A stretch of 64,000 bases of DNA from Pseudomonadota bacterium (GTDB taxonomy: Bacteria; Chloroflexota; UBA5177), in the NCBI GenBank assembly GCA_021324655.1, contig JAJPIP010000039.1, forward strand, positions 1 to 64,000, read 5' to 3'. A program made the translations under genes and the position numbers. The notes below the pieces were generated by a model. It was not told where the DNA came from. It ran no database searches and worked only from the letters and a program-made list of their open reading frames with translations. Positions 16,261-24,582 of this stretch are shown piece by piece. Every line of letters starts with the position of its first letter. Position 1 is the stretch's first letter.

Positions 16261-16394
16261 GTCGAACTCCTCCCGAAGAGTGCGTAAGCAACTCTATCCA
16301 CAGCATAGCCGCGGTGGATCCGGGTCCTATGTCCTGCAGCCTCTCAGGCTCCGCTCCCATCGTCGTTGTAAGTCAGGCGTCGAGAAGGCGAATC

Positions 16395-16490: not shown

Positions 16491-17090
16491 ATGACTCGTG
16501 AGATTCGCTGGCGCATCCTGACCCTGCAGATCATCGCTACCCTCGTCCTCGCCTTTATGGCCGGTGTCACCTTCTGGGCGCATAGCTTCACCCAGTCCCA
16601 GGTCACTCAACAGCTCACGGCCCAGCAGATCGTCTTCCCGCCGGCCGCCAGCCCGGCCCTCAAGGCTCTGCCGGCCGTTGATGCCTCAGCCATGAGCCGG
16701 TATGCCGGCCAGACCATGACCACGGGCGATCAGGCCAAGGTCTATGCCGATCACTTCATCGCCGTTCATTTGAAGGAGATCGGCCAGGGCAAGACCTACG
16801 CCTACTGGAGCGGCAAGGCGCTGGCCGAGAAGACCACCAATCCCACTCAGTTTGCCAAGGATGAGGGCATCGCCCAGACCATGTTCCAGGGCACCACGCT
16901 GCGCTCCATGCTCCTGAATGCCTGGGCCTTCTACTTTGTGGGTAGCATCGCTCTCTATGCCGCCATCGGTCTGACCATCGGCACCATCCTCACGTTCCTC
17001 GCCTTCCTCTATGAGCTCCTCGTCGAGCCCCAGCGTGAAGGCGTCGTCGATCTCAAGTCCCGGAAAGTCTCCGCTCCCTTGGCTGTCTAA
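16491..17090 (+). CDS. Two-helix membrane protein of unknown function
   Basis: A 199-residue protein with a transmembrane helix near the N-terminus (about 10-30), an extracytoplasmic domain of roughly 115 residues, and a second long hydrophobic region (about 145-180). The outer domain has QAKVYADHFIAVHL and GKTYAYWSG, then RSMLLNAWAFYFV. This layout resembles an actinobacterial two-helix family often misnamed aromatic ring-opening dioxygenase LigA; nothing here supports dioxygenase activity. AGGAGGAAG precedes the ATG. A strong terminator follows. Confidence 0.75.
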   Translation: MTREIRWRILTLQIIATLVLAFMAGVTFWAHSFTQSQVTQQLTAQQIVFPPAASPALKALPAVDASAMSRYAGQTMTTGDQAKVYADHFIAVHLKEIGQGKTYAYWSGKALAEKTTNPTQFAKDEGIAQTMFQGTTLRSMLLNAWAFYFVGSIALYAAIGLTIGTILTFLAFLYELLVEPQREGVVDLKSRKVSAPLAV

Positions 17091-17315: not shown

Positions 17316-18047
17316 GTGAAGAACCAGGCAGTCAGGTCTCAGCCCATGACCCCCGCCCAACGGCGGGCCATGGATCGCACGCAGAAACGGCATCCGCGAC
17401 AGCAGCGACCTGGAATCCTCCACCAGGTATCGCGCGGGAATATCATCGCCGGCTTTGTAACCATCGCAATCGTCGTCGGAGCGCTCGTCTATGCCCTGGT
17501 GCGTACCAGCACCGCCGTGTCGACTCCGGGACTCACAAGTCCCGAGTCCCTCAACCCCGCTCCCTCGCAACCTGCCGTGGGCACACGCGCCCCGAACTTC
17601 GCGCTGCGCGACAATTCTGGACAACTACACACCCTGGCGGCGCAGCAAGGGCATCCCGTGCTTGTCGAGTTCTTCGCGGTTTGGTGTCCCGTCTGCCAGG
17701 GTGAAGCTCCCATCATGGCGCAGATCACCCGCAACTACGTCCCAAAGGGTGTCCGCGTCTGGAGCATTCTGGCCAGTCCCTATGGTCCCAACTACGACCT
17801 CAGTGGGCGCACCGATCTCACTCTCGCCAAGTCGGCCGATCTCGCGTGGTTCGCGCACCGATTCGACGTGCAGCATCCGCAGTTGATCGATCCCACCTTC
17901 GCGACGGTCAATCGATACGGCGTCGGCGCCTATCCCGGGCTGTACGTCGTGAACCCGAAAGGCGTGATTACGTACGCCGCTGAAGGACATCGTGACTACT
18001 CGACACTGGCACGTGCCCTCGACCACGCTCTCAGGGCGGCCCGCTAG
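17316..18047 (+). CDS. Membrane-anchored thioredoxin (TlpA-like) protein
   Basis: A 243-residue protein starting with GTG 17316 after GAGGAGGA. A basic cytoplasmic N-terminus (about 1-40) is followed by one membrane helix (about 42-62) and an extracytoplasmic thioredoxin domain with the active site Cys124-Pro-Val-Cys127 in AVWCPVCQ. It probably reduces or exchanges disulfides outside the cell membrane. Its stop codon overlaps the GTG start of a MauE-like gene, so the pair likely forms a membrane thiol-redox relay analogous to MauD/MauE. The redox gene cluster at 19-24 kb lies just downstream. Confidence 0.87.
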   Translation: MKNQAVRSQPMTPAQRRAMDRTQKRHPRQQRPGILHQVSRGNIIAGFVTIAIVVGALVYALVRTSTAVSTPGLTSPESLNPAPSQPAVGTRAPNFALRDNSGQLHTLAAQQGHPVLVEFFAVWCPVCQGEAPIMAQITRNYVPKGVRVWSILASPYGPNYDLSGRTDLTLAKSADLAWFAHRFDVQHPQLIDPTFATVNRYGVGAYPGLYVVNPKGVITYAAEGHRDYSTLARALDHALRAAR

Positions 18048-18595
18048 TGGTCGCTCTGAAGCTCCGGGACTGTCTCCTGCCGGCGAGCCTCGTGTTGGCG
18101 CGCCTGTGCGTCGGTGGCATCTTCCTGATCGCTGCGGTGGGCAAAGTACAGTCTCCCGGCGCCTTTGCCGATGCGATTCGCGCTTTTCACCTGCTCCCAC
18201 CCGCGCTCGTGCTCCCGACGGCCTACGCTCTGCCCTGGATCGAACTGCTCGTCGCTCTCTACGTTCTGACCGGATTCCTTGCCCGCCCGGCGGCCCTGGC
18301 CGCCGGTGGGCTGCTGCTCGTCTTCACGGCGGCGCTCCTTGACTCGCTCATGACCGGCAACACGAATCACGCGTGCGGCTGCTTCGGGCCGGGCGCCGGT
18401 GCCTATCCCATCCTCGCGCTTGTTTCCGGCGGCTCAACCGTGACGCGGTGGGACGTCGTCCGGGATCTCATCCTTGCCGGAATGGCCGCCTTGATCGCCG
18501 CTGGTGGTGCCGGGACGTTATCGGTCGATCGCATCCGGCAACCTCGTCACAGCCGTGCGGAAGCCTACAAAGCCCGCCGGCGCGCCCATTCCTAG
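18047..18595 (+). CDS. MauE/DoxX family membrane protein
   Basis: A 182-residue protein with four hydrophobic segments, overlapping the TlpA-like gene by one base at GTG 18047. The start LARLCVGGIFLIAAVGKVQSP and the segment WIELLVALYVLTGFLARP are typical of MauE/DoxX. A Cys pair (Cys110 and Cys112 in HACGCFGP) sits in the loop after the third helix, as in MauE proteins thought to pass reducing equivalents to a thioredoxin-like partner. The tail is basic. The thiol-relay role is an inference from family and coupling. Confidence 0.85.
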   Translation: MVALKLRDCLLPASLVLARLCVGGIFLIAAVGKVQSPGAFADAIRAFHLLPPALVLPTAYALPWIELLVALYVLTGFLARPAALAAGGLLLVFTAALLDSLMTGNTNHACGCFGPGAGAYPILALVSGGSTVTRWDVVRDLILAGMAALIAAGGAGTLSVDRIRQPRHSRAEAYKARRRAHS

Positions 18596-18611: not shown

Positions 18612-18938
18612 CTCAGGCCGTCCTCTCTTACAACTCAGGTCGCCACCCGCTACCCAGAAGCCTGTCACGTCCAGCGGCTCGCCGATCCAGATGGCGAGCT
18701 CATGCTCGTCCACGACGCGGGTATATCGGACGTCGTGATGGCCAGCCACGGACGCAGCGGACTCTCCCGGGTTCTACTGGGCAGCGTCGCCGATTCCCTC
18801 ATCGAAGCGCTGGATATCCCGATCGTAGTCGCGCCGGCACTTGCCACGAACCGGCTCCCCGTCTACGTGTCATCCGTCCAGAGGGTCAAAATCAGGTCTT
18901 CACCCGATGTTGCATCGGCCGGTGCTCCCGCACACTAG
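18612..18938 (+). pseudogene. Remnant of a universal stress protein
   Basis: The frame from 18612 has no good start but contains the second half of a UspA domain: VATRYPEACHV, then DAGISDVVMASHGRSGLSRVLLGSVADSLIE and DIPIVVAP. The G-x2-G-x9-G(S/T) ATP-binding signature is intact. The first 60-70 residues are missing and the preceding sequence does not supply them, so this looks like a truncated gene. Its tail overlaps the shared element at 18892-18908. Confidence 0.6.
18892..18908 (+). promoter_or_regulatory. 17-base shared element upstream of the cytochrome b cluster
   Basis: TCAGGTCTTCACCCGAT lies 94 bases before the ATG at 18986 and differs at one base from the copy at 16395-16411. It may bind a regulator shared by the two transcripts; the NarL-type regulator at 22779 is a candidate by proximity only. 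Confidence 0.45.
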
Positions 18939-18985: not shown

Positions 18986-19126
18986 ATGAACGGAGTCCAG
19001 GACTACGTCGGGTGGGGATTCGTCCACATCTCGATCGGCAATCTCGTCGTGATCATCCTCATGATCCTCATCTTCGCCCTGGCCGTCCTGCTGCCGTTTC
19101 CGGGCGGACAGGAGAGCGAACGATGA
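18986..19126 (+). CDS. 46-residue single-helix membrane protein opening the cytochrome b cluster
   Basis: A short gene with a ribosome-binding site (GAGGAGG upstream) encoding MNGVQDYVGWGFVHISIGNL in outline, with one transmembrane helix (NLVVIILMILIFALAVLLPF) and a short charged tail. Its TGA overlaps the ATG of the cytochrome b gene (ATGA at 19123-19126), so translation is coupled. By size and position it is a candidate small subunit of the complex, comparable in kind to the single-helix subunits of b6f complexes, though no homology can be claimed. Confidence 0.7.
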   Translation: MNGVQDYVGWGFVHISIGNLVVIILMILIFALAVLLPFPGGQESER

Positions 19127-19731
19127 GCATGACACGACGAACCCAGGAGGCGCTTGCCAGCAATCTTCCCTATGAAGAACTGCTGCCGTCCGAACAACCT
19201 GCCTATGTGCACAGTTATGTCTATCTGTTCGGCGTGGCCACCATCGCCGGTTTCATCGTGCTGATCGCCACGGGGATCATCCTTGCCGCGTTCGGCCCGC
19301 AGTGGTGGCATTTCTCGGCGGTAGGTCACTTCTTCAACGGCCTGCACTTCTGGGCGGTGCAAGCGTTCTTCTTCTTCATGGTCGTGCATCTCTGGGCCAC
19401 TTTCTTTCAGGGCGCGTGGCGTGACGGTCGCGGCACGACCTGGGCGGTCGGCGTCATCACCTTCCTGGTGTCGATCCTGACTGCCTTTACCGGGTATCTG
19501 TCGCAGCAGAACTTCGACGCGCAGTGGATCGCGGTGCAGGCCAAGGACGCGATGAACTCGGTCGGAGTCGGCGCGTTCTTCAACGTCCTGAACTTTGGAC
19601 AGATGTACGGCTTCCACATCGTCATCCTGCCCATTGCCGTCGCCATTCTCATCGCTATCCACCTGACGATGGTGCGACTACGCGGTGTCGTGAAGCCGTA
19701 CCCAATCGACGGCACGGAGGTACAACGATGA
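19123..19731 (+). CDS. Cytochrome b N-terminal (b6-type) subunit
   Basis: A 202-residue, four-helix protein corresponding to the heme-binding half of cytochrome b. The ligand pairs are His75-x13-His89 and His165-x14-His180. The 14-residue spacing of the second pair is that of cytochrome b6 rather than mitochondrial-type cytochrome b. It ends after the fourth helix, with the C-terminal half encoded by the next gene, overlapping by four bases. The expected role is transmembrane electron transfer from quinol through two b hemes. No Cys is present in the N-terminal segment for a b6f-type heme cn. Confidence 0.9.
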   Translation: MSMTRRTQEALASNLPYEELLPSEQPAYVHSYVYLFGVATIAGFIVLIATGIILAAFGPQWWHFSAVGHFFNGLHFWAVQAFFFFMVVHLWATFFQGAWRDGRGTTWAVGVITFLVSILTAFTGYLSQQNFDAQWIAVQAKDAMNSVGVGAFFNVLNFGQMYGFHIVILPIAVAILIAIHLTMVRLRGVVKPYPIDGTEVQR

Positions 19732-20723
19732 TGTCGCGCAAGCACGCCTACTACCGGGGCGTTCGCATGGCGCCCTATGACCTGGTCAAGGAGTTTCTGG
19801 TCGCGCTTGGCGTCGTCACTCTGCTGGTCGTGATTCTCGCGGCGGTCCTCTCATCGCCCGACGTGCGCCCGCTCACCCTCCAGAGCATCGCGACGACGGA
19901 CCCCCAGAGCTACGTTCAGACCGCTCTCAACGAACTCGACGGCAGTAGCGGCATCTCGGACTACGGGCCACCGTACAACAACGGCACCGGCGCCGTGCAG
20001 TATATCGGTCCGATCTCGATTCAGCAGTTGATCGGCGTCCACATCCCGGTGAGCACGGCTCAGGACTTTGTGCTCGGACCGCTTGCGCAGGTTGCTCCCA
20101 CCAATCCGAGCTGGAAGGTAGCGCTCGACCGTTACAACGCGGCGCCGGCCAGACAGCAGACGGCATGGACAAACGCGTACAACACAGCGCTCGGTAAAGC
20201 CACCGAGTCCGGACCGCATCTCTCGGTTGCCCGCTGCGCCTGCGGTCCTGTGACCACGATGATGAAGGCCATGCTCGCCCTCGGACAGCGGGGCGCGATG
20301 GACGGTCTCCTGCTGACCAATCGGCAGTTCTACCAGACGGACTACACCCGTCCGCTTCTGTTCACGGCCGATCCCGACAACAACGTCGTCAACGCCAGGG
20401 CCACCTCGCTCCACCTGCTCGGCAGCCAATGGGGCGTGATGAATGAGACCGGTAATTACCCGGGCCAGGCGTGGCTCTGGCTGTACTCGCTCTTCTATCA
20501 GATCCCGCCGTACACGACGGCATGGGCGGCCAACACCGATGCCCTCGCCATCCTCAGCATCACGGTCCTGAGCTTGGTCTTGCTGTTCCTTCCCTGGATT
20601 CCAGGATTGAACCGGCTCCCACGCTATCTCGGGGTGCACCGCTTGATCTGGAGGGACTGGTATCGGGAGGAGAAACAGAAAGCCGCGCGGACGGCGAAAC
20701 ATAATGCCGAGGTGGAGGCGTGA
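19728..20723 (+). CDS. Cytochrome b C-terminal-like subunit with large extramembrane insert
   Basis: A 331-residue protein starting MMSRKHAYYRGVRMAPYDLVKEF. One helix (about 25-48) is followed by an extracytoplasmic region of some 220 residues, then a C-terminal hydrophobic helix (about 280-302) and a charged tail. The layout matches the C-terminal subunit of split cytochrome b seen in Chloroflexota and related groups. The canonical PEWY motif is replaced by PGQAWLWLYSLFYQIPPY. A C-x-C pair (RCACGPV) lies in the insert, but there is no CxxCH heme c motif. It overlaps both neighbours by four bases. Confidence 0.8.
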   Translation: MMSRKHAYYRGVRMAPYDLVKEFLVALGVVTLLVVILAAVLSSPDVRPLTLQSIATTDPQSYVQTALNELDGSSGISDYGPPYNNGTGAVQYIGPISIQQLIGVHIPVSTAQDFVLGPLAQVAPTNPSWKVALDRYNAAPARQQTAWTNAYNTALGKATESGPHLSVARCACGPVTTMMKAMLALGQRGAMDGLLLTNRQFYQTDYTRPLLFTADPDNNVVNARATSLHLLGSQWGVMNETGNYPGQAWLWLYSLFYQIPPYTTAWAANTDALAILSITVLSLVLLFLPWIPGLNRLPRYLGVHRLIWRDWYREEKQKAARTAKHNAEVEA

Positions 20724-20947
20724 CGGTGAACTGGACTCACCTGCGAGCGCACCTCTTCACCCTCGCCGCGACCGTGATGGGGATCGCCGGCATGGGCTTG
20801 GTCTTCAGCGGCACCATGGCGGCCAGCTTCTCTGAGGCCAGTCGCGGCGTTCCCCTGCTCCTGATCGGCCTCTGGTGGGCCGGCCGGGAGCTGGGCCGCA
20901 GCATGGAAGCGAGCCGCCGTCGCAAGGTCGGTCCGGGACAGACATGA
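20720..20947 (+). CDS. Small two-helix membrane protein of the cytochrome b operon
   Basis: A 75-residue protein with GTG 20720 overlapping the stop of the preceding gene. Two hydrophobic segments (about 10-32 and 42-57) are followed by a basic tail (EASRRRKVGPGQ). It is unrecognised. Coupling to the cytochrome b genes suggests an accessory subunit or assembly factor. Confidence 0.65.
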   Translation: MTVNWTHLRAHLFTLAATVMGIAGMGLVFSGTMAASFSEASRGVPLLLIGLWWAGRELGRSMEASRRRKVGPGQT

Positions 20948-20951
20948 GCCG

Positions 20952-21176
20952 ATGAGCCCATCTGAGTCCGGCAAGCGGTCGGTCGCGTGGCAGTGGATAT
21001 ATCTCGCCCTCCCCGTGACCGCGTGCGTCCTCGTCGTCGTCGTCGGTATCGGACTCGCCAGCTTCATCCGCGTCATCGATCCCTTGTTCGTTGAGGTGCT
21101 GGCGATTGGGATGCTCATCGCGCTCGGTCTCGCCTCCGCCTACGCGGTTTCCCGCGGCCTGTCCGCGCGGAAGTAA
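20952..21176 (+). CDS. Second small two-helix membrane protein of the cytochrome b operon
   Basis: A 74-residue protein beginning five bases after the preceding stop. It has two transmembrane helices (about 14-37 and 44-66) with short polar ends. It is unrecognised. Together with the genes at 18986 and 20720 it gives three small membrane proteins around the split cytochrome b, a pattern expected of a multi-subunit complex. Confidence 0.65.
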   Translation: MSPSESGKRSVAWQWIYLALPVTACVLVVVVGIGLASFIRVIDPLFVEVLAIGMLIALGLASAYAVSRGLSARK

Positions 21177-21188
21177 CGACGGTCGCAC

Positions 21189-22760
21189 GTGGGGCATCCA
21201 AACCGGATATACTTAAGGGATCAATATGTCAAGGGATGGGACGACCGAACGACGGTGAACGTAAAGAACCTGCGGCTCATCACGATCGTCCTCCCGATCG
21301 CGTACATCCTCGCCATTGAGCTCTTCAGCCTGTTTGTCTTGCTGCCGGTGACGGGCCGCAACGCGGTCTTGCGCCTGCTCATGATTTTCGGCCTACTCGT
21401 GGTGGGAAGCGTGCCCTTCTCGTTCTGGGTCTTCGCCGCCATCGATCGACGCATGACCGACCTGGCGGACGCCAACGCCGAGATCGAGCGCCGAAACCGG
21501 GAATTGCGAGCGACAAACACGGCCATCACCTCAATCTCGCACGCTCTCAACCTCTCAGAGGTGCTTCAGACGATCGCCGACGTCGCGCGCGAGCTGGCGA
21601 GCTCCCGATACGCAGCGCTGGGCGTGGCGGATGAGTCGGGCCGAATTCTGCAGTTCATCACGTCCGGTATCACGTCGGAACAGCGCGCCGCGATCGGCCC
21701 TCTGCCAGAGGGGCACGGGCTCCTGGCTGCCCTCATTCACGAGGCTCAACCGCTACGCATTCCCAACATCGCGAAGGATCCCCGGAGCCACGGATTCCCG
21801 CCCAACCATCCACCGATGACGAATCTCCTGGGTGTCCCTATCTTCCTGCATGGAAAGCCTGTCGGTGACCTCTACCTCACGGACAAAATCGGTGCGGCCG
21901 AGTTCACGCAGGAAGATCAGGATCTGATCATGCTGCTGGCCAATCACGCCGCGATCGCCATCGAAAACGCGCGTCTCTATGAGGAGGCCGAGGAGTCCCG
22001 CGAGCGGCTCCAGACATTGAACACGACCCTGGAGGAGAGGGTGGCGGAGCGCACGCGCGAGATCGAGAGGTACAGCAAGGACCTGACCACGCGCGTGTTG
22101 CGAGCGCAGGAGGAAGAACGAAAGCGCATCGCCCGGGAGCTGCATGACGACACCGCCCAGTCACTCTCCACGCTCCTTATCAACCTTGACGTGATTCAGC
22201 CCGAGATTCCGGAGACTGACGGGATCCTACGCTCGGGTTTCGACCGCGTTCGCGCCATCGCCCAGCGCACCCTGGACGCGACACGCGCTCTCTCGCATGA
22301 CCTTCGCCCGACCATCCTGGACGACTTCGGCTTGATAGCCGCGCTCAGATGGTATGCCGAGGAGTACTCGCGAACCTTCGGCATCCCGGTGACCGTTCGG
22401 TCTGATTCCATTCCCCCCGGCACGCTCTCGCCGGAGGCGGAGCTGGCGCTCTTTCGGATCGCTCAGGAAGCCCTAACCAACACGGGAAAATACGCCCGCG
22501 CCACGCGGGCTGACGTGAAGATGACGATCGATGGTGAGATGGCCACGCTCACCGTCGAAGACGACGGTCAGGGCTTCGACGTCGATGGGCGGACCGGTCC
22601 GACGCGCCACGGCGGACTGGGGCTGTACGGGATGGTGGAACGCGCCCAACTCCTCGGCGGAACATTACACCTGGCCTCTCAGGTCGGGCAGGGAACCTGC
22701 GTGACGGCCGTGATACCGATCGTGGCGGTGGACTCGGCCGTCGGCGCGGCCGAGGCGTAA
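21189..22760 (+). CDS. GAF-domain sensor histidine kinase (HisKA_3, NarX-like)
   Basis: A 523-residue kinase counted from GTG 21189; GTG 21255 is an alternative, and a TATACT at 21208-21213 could be a -10 box for that shorter form. Two membrane helices (about 30-52 and 60-84) form a small N-terminal anchor, then a GAF domain (about 120-262), a coiled coil, and a HisKA_3 domain with His319 in ARELHDDTAQSLSTLL. The HATPase_c domain carries DDGQGFD and GGLGLYGMVERA. It directly precedes its likely partner, the NarL-type regulator at 22779. The GAF domain may sense redox or gas; no ligand residues can be assigned. Confidence 0.92.
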   Translation: MGHPNRIYLRDQYVKGWDDRTTVNVKNLRLITIVLPIAYILAIELFSLFVLLPVTGRNAVLRLLMIFGLLVVGSVPFSFWVFAAIDRRMTDLADANAEIERRNRELRATNTAITSISHALNLSEVLQTIADVARELASSRYAALGVADESGRILQFITSGITSEQRAAIGPLPEGHGLLAALIHEAQPLRIPNIAKDPRSHGFPPNHPPMTNLLGVPIFLHGKPVGDLYLTDKIGAAEFTQEDQDLIMLLANHAAIAIENARLYEEAEESRERLQTLNTTLEERVAERTREIERYSKDLTTRVLRAQEEERKRIARELHDDTAQSLSTLLINLDVIQPEIPETDGILRSGFDRVRAIAQRTLDATRALSHDLRPTILDDFGLIAALRWYAEEYSRTFGIPVTVRSDSIPPGTLSPEAELALFRIAQEALTNTGKYARATRADVKMTIDGEMATLTVEDDGQGFDVDGRTGPTRHGGLGLYGMVERAQLLGGTLHLASQVGQGTCVTAVIPIVAVDSAVGAAEA

Positions 22761-22778
22761 CACCTTGAGGAGAAAGTA

Positions 22779-23429
22779 ATGGATACAAAGGTCCTCCTGG
22801 TCGATGACCATGCGATCTTGCGAGACGGTTTGCGGATGGTCCTCGACGCCCAGCCCGATCTGAAAGTCGTTGGGGAAGCCGAGGACGGCCGACGGGCCCT
22901 TGAGATGGTGGAAGCTCTCCACCCGACAGTCGTCGTGATGGATATTGCGATGCCGAACATGAACGGTGCAGAGGCGACCCGTCAGATCAAGCGCCGGTTT
23001 CCCGGCGTCCGTGTGCTCATTCTCACCATGCACGAGAACCAGCAGTATCTCTCTCAGATTGTGAGCGCGGGCGCCATCGGCTGCGTCTTGAAGAGATCAG
23101 CGGGGAGCGAGTTGGTCACCGCGGTGCGGGCCGCGGCCCGTGGCGAGAGCTACTTCTCGCCGTCCCTCGCCACCATGCTCCTGGATAGCTATCGGATGCA
23201 GCTGTTGGGTGAGGGCGAGGATGAATCAAGTCTCCTCACCGAGCGCGAGCGGGAAGTCCTGCAACTGGTCGCGGAGGGCAAGAACAACCAGGAGATCGCT
23301 GACATACTGGTCGTCTCCATCAAGACGGTCCAGACCCACCGCATGCACCTCATGGAAAAGCTGAATGCGCATGACCGGACCGAGCTGGTGAAGCACGCGA
23401 TCCGGCTGGGCATGGTGACGGCCGAGTGA
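22779..23429 (+). CDS. NarL/LuxR-type response regulator
   Basis: A 216-residue regulator starting MDTKVLLVDDHAILRDGLRM, preceded by GAGGAGA. The receiver domain has acidic residues at positions 9-10, the phospho-acceptor Asp55 (VVVMDIAMPN) and a conserved Lys (LKRSAG). The C-terminal LuxR helix-turn-helix begins LTEREREVLQLVAEGKNNQEIADIL. It is 18 bases after the kinase gene. By position it is likely to control the cytochrome b cluster or the convergent DoxX-Rieske gene. Confidence 0.95.
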   Translation: MDTKVLLVDDHAILRDGLRMVLDAQPDLKVVGEAEDGRRALEMVEALHPTVVVMDIAMPNMNGAEATRQIKRRFPGVRVLILTMHENQQYLSQIVSAGAIGCVLKRSAGSELVTAVRAAARGESYFSPSLATMLLDSYRMQLLGEGEDESSLLTEREREVLQLVAEGKNNQEIADILVVSIKTVQTHRMHLMEKLNAHDRTELVKHAIRLGMVTAE

Positions 23430-23457
23430 CATCAGCACCATGTCCGACGGGGGGCAG

Positions 23458-24582
23458 TCAGGCGATGTAGATATCGCCCTTGGCGTCGACTTTAAAGGCG
23501 ATCTTGCTGAGGGGCGCGGGAGGTGGACCGGCGACGACCTGGGCGCCGTGCGCCGGGTCATACTCGCCGCCGTGGCACGGACAAATGATGAGCTTCTGCG
23601 ACGGATCGTATTGCACCTCACAGCCGGCGTGGGTGCAAACCGCGTCGTACGCGTACACGTGGGTCTGATCGGTGCGGACCACGATCACTGGGTCGCCGGT
23701 CGCCGGGTCTTGCGTCATTCCGGCGCTGTTCGGCGGCAGCGCGCTGATATTCCCGACCTTCTTCATGCCGGCGGGCGCTCCGCCTGAACCGATTCCCCCC
23801 GATCCCGTTCCCTGCGACGGAGGTGCAGTGCCTTGCGATCCCTTCGTCCCCAGGGACTGACCGGCTCCACTCGCCGCACCTACCGGTCCGGCGTGGTCGG
23901 CGATGCCGAGGAGGACCAGCAGTCCGGTGAGGGCCGTCCCGATGATGGCCTCACGCCGGGTCATGCGTGGTTGATTGAAGACGGGGTGCGTTTCCGGCCC
24001 GAGCGCCAGCCGCCGGAGCCCCGGCTCGACGTCGGGCAGGACGCGATAGTCGACCAGACGCCCGAGCGAGTAAGGACCGGGGCCGGTGAGGGCCAGCGTC
24101 AGCCAGGCAATCACAAACACGATGTCGGACCCCATGAAGTAGGGATATGTGTGCCAGCTGGCGGACAGGAAGAAGGTCAAGTTCAGAATCAGGCCGACTA
24201 CGGCTGCGAGGCGGGTCAAGATGCCGAGCAGCACACAGACTCCGATCGTGAACTCGGCCAGGATGGTGAGCCACCCGACGGCCACGGCATGCTCCATCGC
24301 ATGTAGCAAGAACACCCGGATAGGCGACCCGCGGCTGAAGGCCAGCAATTGTGCGCCGATATAGGTGCTGGACCCCGGGTGGAAAAAACCTGGGTCGCTC
24401 AGCTTCTGGATGGCCGCATACAGGAAGGTGATTCCCAGGAAAGCGCGCAGCGGCAAGATGGTAACGGCAGGGATAGCATGGGCCCCCTCAGGAACCGGTT
24501 GCTGATCGACCAGCAGGTCGGGTTGTGATACGGAGTGCGGGCCGCGTGGCTGCTGCTGGCGTGAATGGGACATGAGCGACAT
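23458..24582 (-). CDS. DoxX membrane domain fused to a Rieske [2Fe-2S] domain
   Basis: A 374-residue protein. Residues about 42-180 form a DoxX-like four-helix domain (RAFLGITFLYAAIQKLSDP). A further helix at about 213-229 is preceded by TRREAIIG, an internal twin-arginine-like motif. After a Gly/Ser-rich linker, residues about 275-372 form a Rieske domain. Box I is Cys316-Thr-His318-Ala-Gly-Cys321 and box II is Cys334-Pro-Cys336-His337-Gly-Gly, so cluster ligands and the disulfide pair are all present. The Ser of the usual CPCHGS is Gly, while the following Tyr341 is kept. It converges on the kinase/regulator pair and is a candidate partner of the split cytochrome b. Confidence 0.9.
   Translation of the reverse strand: MSLMSHSRQQQPRGPHSVSQPDLLVDQQPVPEGAHAIPAVTILPLRAFLGITFLYAAIQKLSDPGFFHPGSSTYIGAQLLAFSRGSPIRVFLLHAMEHAVAVGWLTILAEFTIGVCVLLGILTRLAAVVGLILNLTFFLSASWHTYPYFMGSDIVFVIAWLTLALTGPGPYSLGRLVDYRVLPDVEPGLRRLALGPETHPVFNQPRMTRREAIIGTALTGLLVLLGIADHAGPVGAASGAGQSLGTKGSQGTAPPSQGTGSGGIGSGGAPAGMKKVGNISALPPNSAGMTQDPATGDPVIVVRTDQTHVYAYDAVCTHAGCEVQYDPSQKLIICPCHGGEYDPAHGAQVVAGPPPAPLSKIAFKVDAKGDIYIA

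Follow-up and report, generated by a model that had tools for sequence, protein, structure and literature searches.

The described systems closest to the locus reported here include two groups. Cytochrome b6 and subunit IV of the b6f complex, cytochrome b of the bc1 complex, and the actinobacterial QcrB are the comparators for its membrane proteins, and the DevS/DosT-DevR (DosR) and OsdKR dormancy regulons are those for its regulatory setting. Control of the DevR/DosR type, which senses oxygen (O2) and nitric oxide (NO), is used by mycobacteria for dormancy. The hypoxic dormancy regulons of mycobacteria have been much studied and, to our knowledge, the redox enzymes that they induce in uncultured soil bacteria are largely unknown. 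We describe a gene cluster from a Chloroflexota genome (lineage UBA5177; assembly GCA_021324655.1), in the first 64,000 nucleotides of contig JAJPIP010000039.1, a stretch referred to as the window, that encodes a divergent cytochrome b followed by a sensor kinase and a response regulator, with a companion membrane protein, p199, encoded nearby. We favor, at a probability of roughly 0.55, the explanation that this is a diverged, stand-alone, Rieske-less, and probably menaquinone-linked dihaem cytochrome b of a hypoxia and NO response, with an active site of its own on the outer side of the membrane; the regulatory part of this explanation is stronger than the enzymology.

With b6/subunit IV and with the cytochrome b of bc1 and QcrB the window's cytochrome shares the four-helix dihaem bundle, the histidine spacing of 14 and 15, helix E, and a match at the level of fold. 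Unlike b6f and bc1, it lacks the PEWY motif, helix G, and any linked Rieske or cytochrome c/f gene, and carries a large p-side domain. The likeness to the DevR and OsdKR regulons lies in the haem GAF kinase of the window and, in relatives, in the promoter boxes and the Acg, universal stress protein (USP), PNPOx, and pyruvate phosphate dikinase (PPDK) neighbors; unlike members of those regulons, the copy in the window is not preceded by a box, and the regulator beside it is not clearly DevR. Literature searches returned no description of this cytochrome, nor of a cytochrome b of this kind as a member of a DevR or OsdKR regulon. The widespread conserved system is best taken as a variant of the cytochrome b superfamily and not as a new bc complex.

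A single cytochrome polypeptide in many relatives

The cluster begins with five membrane open reading frames (ORFs; Table 1), the first four of which overlap through ATGA or GTGA, with the fifth starting 5 base pairs (bp) further on, and they therefore form an operon-like run. An earlier interpretation made without database searches (the sequence-only reading) had listed these ORFs with their overlapping or nearly touching joins, followed by a GAF histidine kinase and NarL-type regulator as the cluster's own two-component system, and all are present where it placed them. Its assignment of a divergent b6-type four-helix cytochrome b is likewise borne out, as the protein of 202 amino acids (aa) matches Pfam Cytochrom_B_N_2 (expectation value (E) 2e-14) and solved b6 structures, and its haem-ligand histidines have the b6 spacing of 14 and 15. 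The best NCBIfam model for this part is ExtP (NF040969), a b-type cytochrome of selenite/tellurite operons, but the score of 63.8 bits is far under the curated cut-off of 290 bits and the ext operon was not seen. The 331-aa protein that follows has only two predicted helices (residues 23–41 and 273–291) and matches nothing in Pfam, NCBIfam, or PDB. The sequence-only reading had taken it for a cytochrome b C-terminal half with a large extracytoplasmic insert and no PEWY; the insert and the missing motif stand, and the notion of an intact half is not borne out, given two helices, no database match, and helix E as the only part of it within the confident profile alignment.

Relatives of the 331-aa protein are found in 12 of the 61 Chloroflexota genomes sampled, and at least 218 loci in GTDB species-level genomes encode the cytochrome family, 80 of which were retained. 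The b6 part and the outer-domain part share one reading frame in 45 of the 81 loci in which fusion was counted, and in 40 of those 45 the 46-aa helix is also fused in front, giving a product of approximately 600–650 aa; Chloroflexota, Dormibacteria, and a number of the actinobacterial records include split forms. The 46-, 202-, and 331-aa proteins are a single polypeptide in many relatives. Homologues of the 75-aa protein were confined to the order to which the window belongs, and the 74-aa protein had none outside the window, so that what the sequence-only reading had counted as three small subunits is one N-terminal helix of the cytochrome plus two local additions; on the gene-neighborhood comparison that it had suggested, the first is conserved and the other two are not conserved beyond that order.

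The four haem-ligand histidines are invariant in all 43 rows of the alignment, and the p-side H63 of the 202-aa protein is invariant too. Also invariant or nearly so, in the numbering of the fused homologue L061, are H147 in the ab loop, N214, D216, Q218, W219, K225, and D226 in the cd loop, and two motifs of the outer domain, YGPPYN (Y368–N373) and WGVMNETG..PG..W (W521, N525-E-T-G, P531-G, W535). Judged by the established topology of cytochrome b, this block probably lies at the p-side, on the side of haem bL, and on it we base the proposal of an outer redox site. An AlphaFold2 model of L061 (predicted local distance difference test (pLDDT) 78, predicted template modeling score (pTM) 0.77), submitted whole to Foldseek, has mycobacterial QcrB as its best match (E 2.6e-6), with target template modeling scores (TM-scores) of 0.61–0.65 for b6.

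Two further types of relative were encountered. About 20 actinobacterial genomes (e.g. G126, G156, and G242) encode stand-alone four-helix relatives of 265–300 aa without the outer domain, and one genome of the window's family (G004; contigs C261/C301 and C240) apparently has two cytochrome copies, the second of which is 45% identical and bears a DevR-type box.

Relationship to bc and b6f complexes

The family profile aligns with that of ordinary Chloroflexota cytochrome b through helices A–E (hhalign E 9e-20), and the confident alignment stops within helix E. After the outer domain, similarity to the PEWY region and to helix F is weak (hhalign E 0.0065, probability 6%), and YPGQ(P/A)WLWLY replaces the PEWY (or PDWY-type) motif of the quinol-oxidation (Qo) site; helix G is absent, and the C-terminal part has two helices in place of E, F, and G.

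As the sequence-only reading had noted, the window has a single Rieske motif, in a DoxX fusion convergent with the cluster, and contains no recognizable cytochrome c gene. The alternative bc complex that it built on this fusion is not supported by comparison with relatives. Of 90 homologous loci, just one has a Rieske motif in its flanks; this is a homologous Rieske fragment (L106 1135–1557) in a genome from the same family as the window's, and no recurrent cytochrome c (CxxCH) neighbor is present among the clusters of locus genes. The sequence-only reading had also said that homologues of its two cytochrome b genes, if consistently beside a separate ordinary Rieske and cytochrome c elsewhere in the genome, would refute its complex, and what is observed comes near to this. 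There are eight Rieske matches in the genome, one of them a gene immediately upstream of an ordinary cytochrome b (L116 10235–11992, contig C52) that is homologous to the window's in helices A–E and differs in having PDWY and a C-terminally fused cytochrome c (CMACH). The C-terminal domain of ordinary cytochrome b is present in 11 of the 12 Chloroflexota genomes with the cluster.

Regulatory setting

The sequence-only reading missed the key conserved context, which is a DevS/DevR-type hypoxia and NO setting together with p199. The closest solved structures to the GAF domain of the window kinase are the haem GAF domains of DosT (E 6e-36) and DevS (E 2e-33). The DevS haem GAF has a proximal His149 and a distal Tyr171 (PMC4082495), and counting along the structure-match alignment shows that the kinase keeps the equivalents of both (codons 21807–21809 and 21873–21875, respectively). 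VraR is the closest solved structure to the regulator, and DevR matches as well.

In relatives, genes typical of DevR-type regulons lie close to the cytochrome. Locus L035 contains, in a row, DevR (3c3w, E 5e-86), DevS (E 1e-53), p199, and the cytochrome, and L050 repeats this order preceded by two confirmed Acg-family flavin mononucleotide oxidoreductases. The surroundings of L189 include USPs, PPDK, a zinc alcohol dehydrogenase, and PNPOx, all of them kinds of gene also seen in the table of the OsdR regulon (PMC5069765); cydAB is near L054 and a hydrogenase near L069. When the 80 retained loci are compared with 40 control regions of the same genomes, PNPOx (15 vs 0), DevR (12 vs 1), and p199 (11 vs 0) are enriched, and at least one marker gene is found at 22 of the 80 loci, compared with 2 of the 40 controls (p 0.002), although these figures are supportive only, as the markers were selected after some loci had already been seen.

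The promoter test is independent of marker choice because it uses the DevR half-sites. Scoring a box as at least nine of the ten positions of GGGACN4GTCCC, we find one in 24 of 83 cytochrome upstream regions (22 of the 78 that are non-similar), where 1.6 are expected from the same loci and 1.8 from dinucleotide shuffles (maximum 5 in 100 sets); seven regions have perfect boxes vs 0.07 expected. Many of the boxes sit 120–175 bp ahead of the cytochrome start, and several have a core identical to published OsdR sites such as AGGGACCTTCGGCCCC. A second cytochrome copy in the window's family (L111) has a box. With a matrix trained on the cytochrome upstream sites, and counting as high any score above the 95% quantile of controls, 11 of 14 p199 upstream regions score high, some of these p199 genes being close relatives, and the Chloroflexota locus L122 has two high scores ahead of p199. 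The palindrome ahead of p199 in the window (Table 1) exceeds the same quantile and is not significant alone, and no upstream motif common to the nearest Chloroflexota is visible.

In another Chloroflexota locus (L107 12598–16208) acetate kinase and phosphoketolase genes directly follow the cytochrome-kinase-regulator run.

The companion protein p199

No Pfam or NCBIfam family includes p199, and a fold search gave no match (best E 0.95). The gene is near the cytochrome in 14 loci. Among the sampled Chloroflexota it is present in 8 of 12 genomes with the cytochrome and none of 49 without (p 2e-7), all eight carriers thus having the cytochrome, and in the other collection 26 of the 40 genomes that carry the cytochrome also have p199. 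In 199 Actinomycetota genomes p199 is found in 25, the cytochrome in 6–7, and both in 3–4 (p 0.03–0.005). All-against-all clustering of locus neighbors, used to look for conserved partner genes other than p199, revealed no single obligate partner. We considered whether p199 is itself an obligate subunit and rejected this because it is the commoner of the two in Actinomycetota; the observations fit an accessory or co-regulated protein better than they fit a fixed subunit. One p199 gene (L185) lies in a DevRS-like island with a DevS-like kinase, two NarL-type regulators, and a P-type ATPase, and no cytochrome.

Proposed function and alternatives

We propose that a cytochrome b of the bc/b6f superfamily lost its machinery for Rieske-dependent quinol oxidation, and that the p-side loop joining helix E to the final helix, the site at which a Rieske protein would bind, is now filled by the conserved extracytoplasmic domain. 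The cytochrome would be made as part of a DevS/DevR (DosR)-type response to O2, NO, and carbon monoxide (CO), with expression rising once the haem kinase loses O2 or binds NO or CO. Electrons would cross the membrane by way of haems bL and bH, in one direction or the other, between menaquinone on the cytoplasmic side and, outside, a substrate or redox partner bound in a pocket built from the invariant residues of the ab loop, the cd loop, and the outer domain. The helix-domain-helix protein p199 would act as an accessory, and at low O2 the system would serve to balance the redox state of the quinone pool or of an external acceptor. More tentatively, the family may be an undescribed class of quinone-linked membrane redox enzymes, in which a cytochrome b carries an extracytoplasmic catalytic domain that replaces the Rieske/PEWY quinol-oxidation site, and which is used, with p199 as accessory, in the DevR/DosR-type hypoxia and dormancy responses of Chloroflexota, Dormibacteria, and Actinobacteria of soil and acid habitats.

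If tied to such regulons, the cytochrome would be a concrete candidate for how uncultured soil bacteria move electrons once oxygen is exhausted. A further suggestion is that, within the cytochrome b fold, the Rieske partner can be lost and a different outer domain gained, which bears on the evolution of bc complexes. The tie to dormancy-type regulation makes the system testable, as does the fact that it can be recognized by its conserved protein, its companion gene, and its promoter box.

Several observations count against this explanation. About 70% of the homologues have no recognizable box, and in the window there is none ahead of the cytochrome, kinase, or Rieske genes; the regulator is not a clear DevR orthologue, and the link to hypoxia in the window therefore rests on the kinase and on the relatives. 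To these are added the post hoc selection of the marker genes, the greater frequency of p199 than of the cytochrome in Actinomycetota, and the lack of a separate fold match for the outer domain.

That the split cytochrome b works with the DoxX-Rieske fusion as an alternative bc complex is suggested by the adjacent, convergent Rieske gene of the window and by the homologous fragment near the cluster in a second genome of the family, but the rarity of a nearby Rieske elsewhere, the combined absence of PEWY, helix G, and cytochrome c, and the separate coding of an ordinary bc complex make it highly improbable. The cytochrome might instead be a bc-type quinol oxidase with a modified Qo site that borrows the Rieske and cytochrome c of the ordinary complex in trans. 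That complex is available in nearly all the Chloroflexota hosts, helices A–E are clearly homologous, and the cd loop (LSQQNFDSQW) is similar to that of the host's ordinary protein (LLRWNQDAYW); as the latter also has no PWG, we dropped the loss of PWG from the cd loop as an argument against Qo function. However, a large domain takes up the Rieske docking region, the acid of PEWY is gone with an unrelated invariant block in its place, and the genes are unlinked to those of the ordinary complex, such that we consider borrowing quite unlikely.

A haem-based redox or gas sensor, or a relay, serving the DevS-type kinase and not electron transport would fit the kinase genes found next to the cytochrome in the order of the window and at some actinobacterial loci, but most actinobacterial loci have no adjacent kinase, the DevS-type GAF is itself a known type of sensor, and the invariant polar p-side pocket looks catalytic, and such a role is very unlikely. 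A detoxifying quinone-linked oxidoreductase, induced by hypoxia or NO and acting on a p-side substrate such as superoxide, NO, or ferric iron, would have an anatomy identical to that of the Rieske-less cytochrome we favor. DevR-type regulons respond to NO and CO as well as to hypoxia (PMC4082495), and many of the hosts apparently come from acid, metal-rich habitats, judging from record titles; however, we found no substrate-specific signature, and detoxification seems unlikely.

Other features of the window

Coordinates of the cluster and its surroundings are given in Table 1.

Table 1. The cytochrome cluster and neighboring features, in window coordinates.
Feature	Position	Strand	Remarks
Weak DevR-type palindrome TCCGGGTCCTATGTCCTGCA	16319..16338	.	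172 bp upstream of p199
p199 companion membrane protein, 199 aa (helix - outer domain - helix)	16491..17090	+	No known family
Universal stress protein gene remnant	18702..18938	+	Just upstream of cytochrome
N-terminal single-helix segment of cytochrome, 46 aa	18986..19126	+	Fused to next protein in many homologues
Four-helix b6-type dihaem cytochrome b, 202 aa	19123..19731	+	Predicted ligands H75, H89, H165, H180
331-aa continuation of same polypeptide	19728..20723	+	Helix E, extracytoplasmic domain, one more helix
Small membrane protein, 75 aa	20720..20947	+	Kept only within the window's order
Small membrane protein, 74 aa	20952..21176	+	No homologue in any locus
Membrane histidine kinase	21189..22760	+	Start may be slightly later; GAF closest to DosT/DevS haem GAF-A
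NarL/LuxR-type response regulator	22779..23429	+	Structure matches VraR (closest), DevR
DoxD/DoxX-Rieske fusion	23458..24582	-	Convergent; not conserved with cluster (one other case)

The universal stress protein remnant retains just the final 39 positions of the Usp domain. Between p199 and the cytochrome (17316–18595, + strand) are genes for a TlpA/ResA-like thioredoxin and a MauE/DoxX-like membrane protein, which are not conserved with the cluster.

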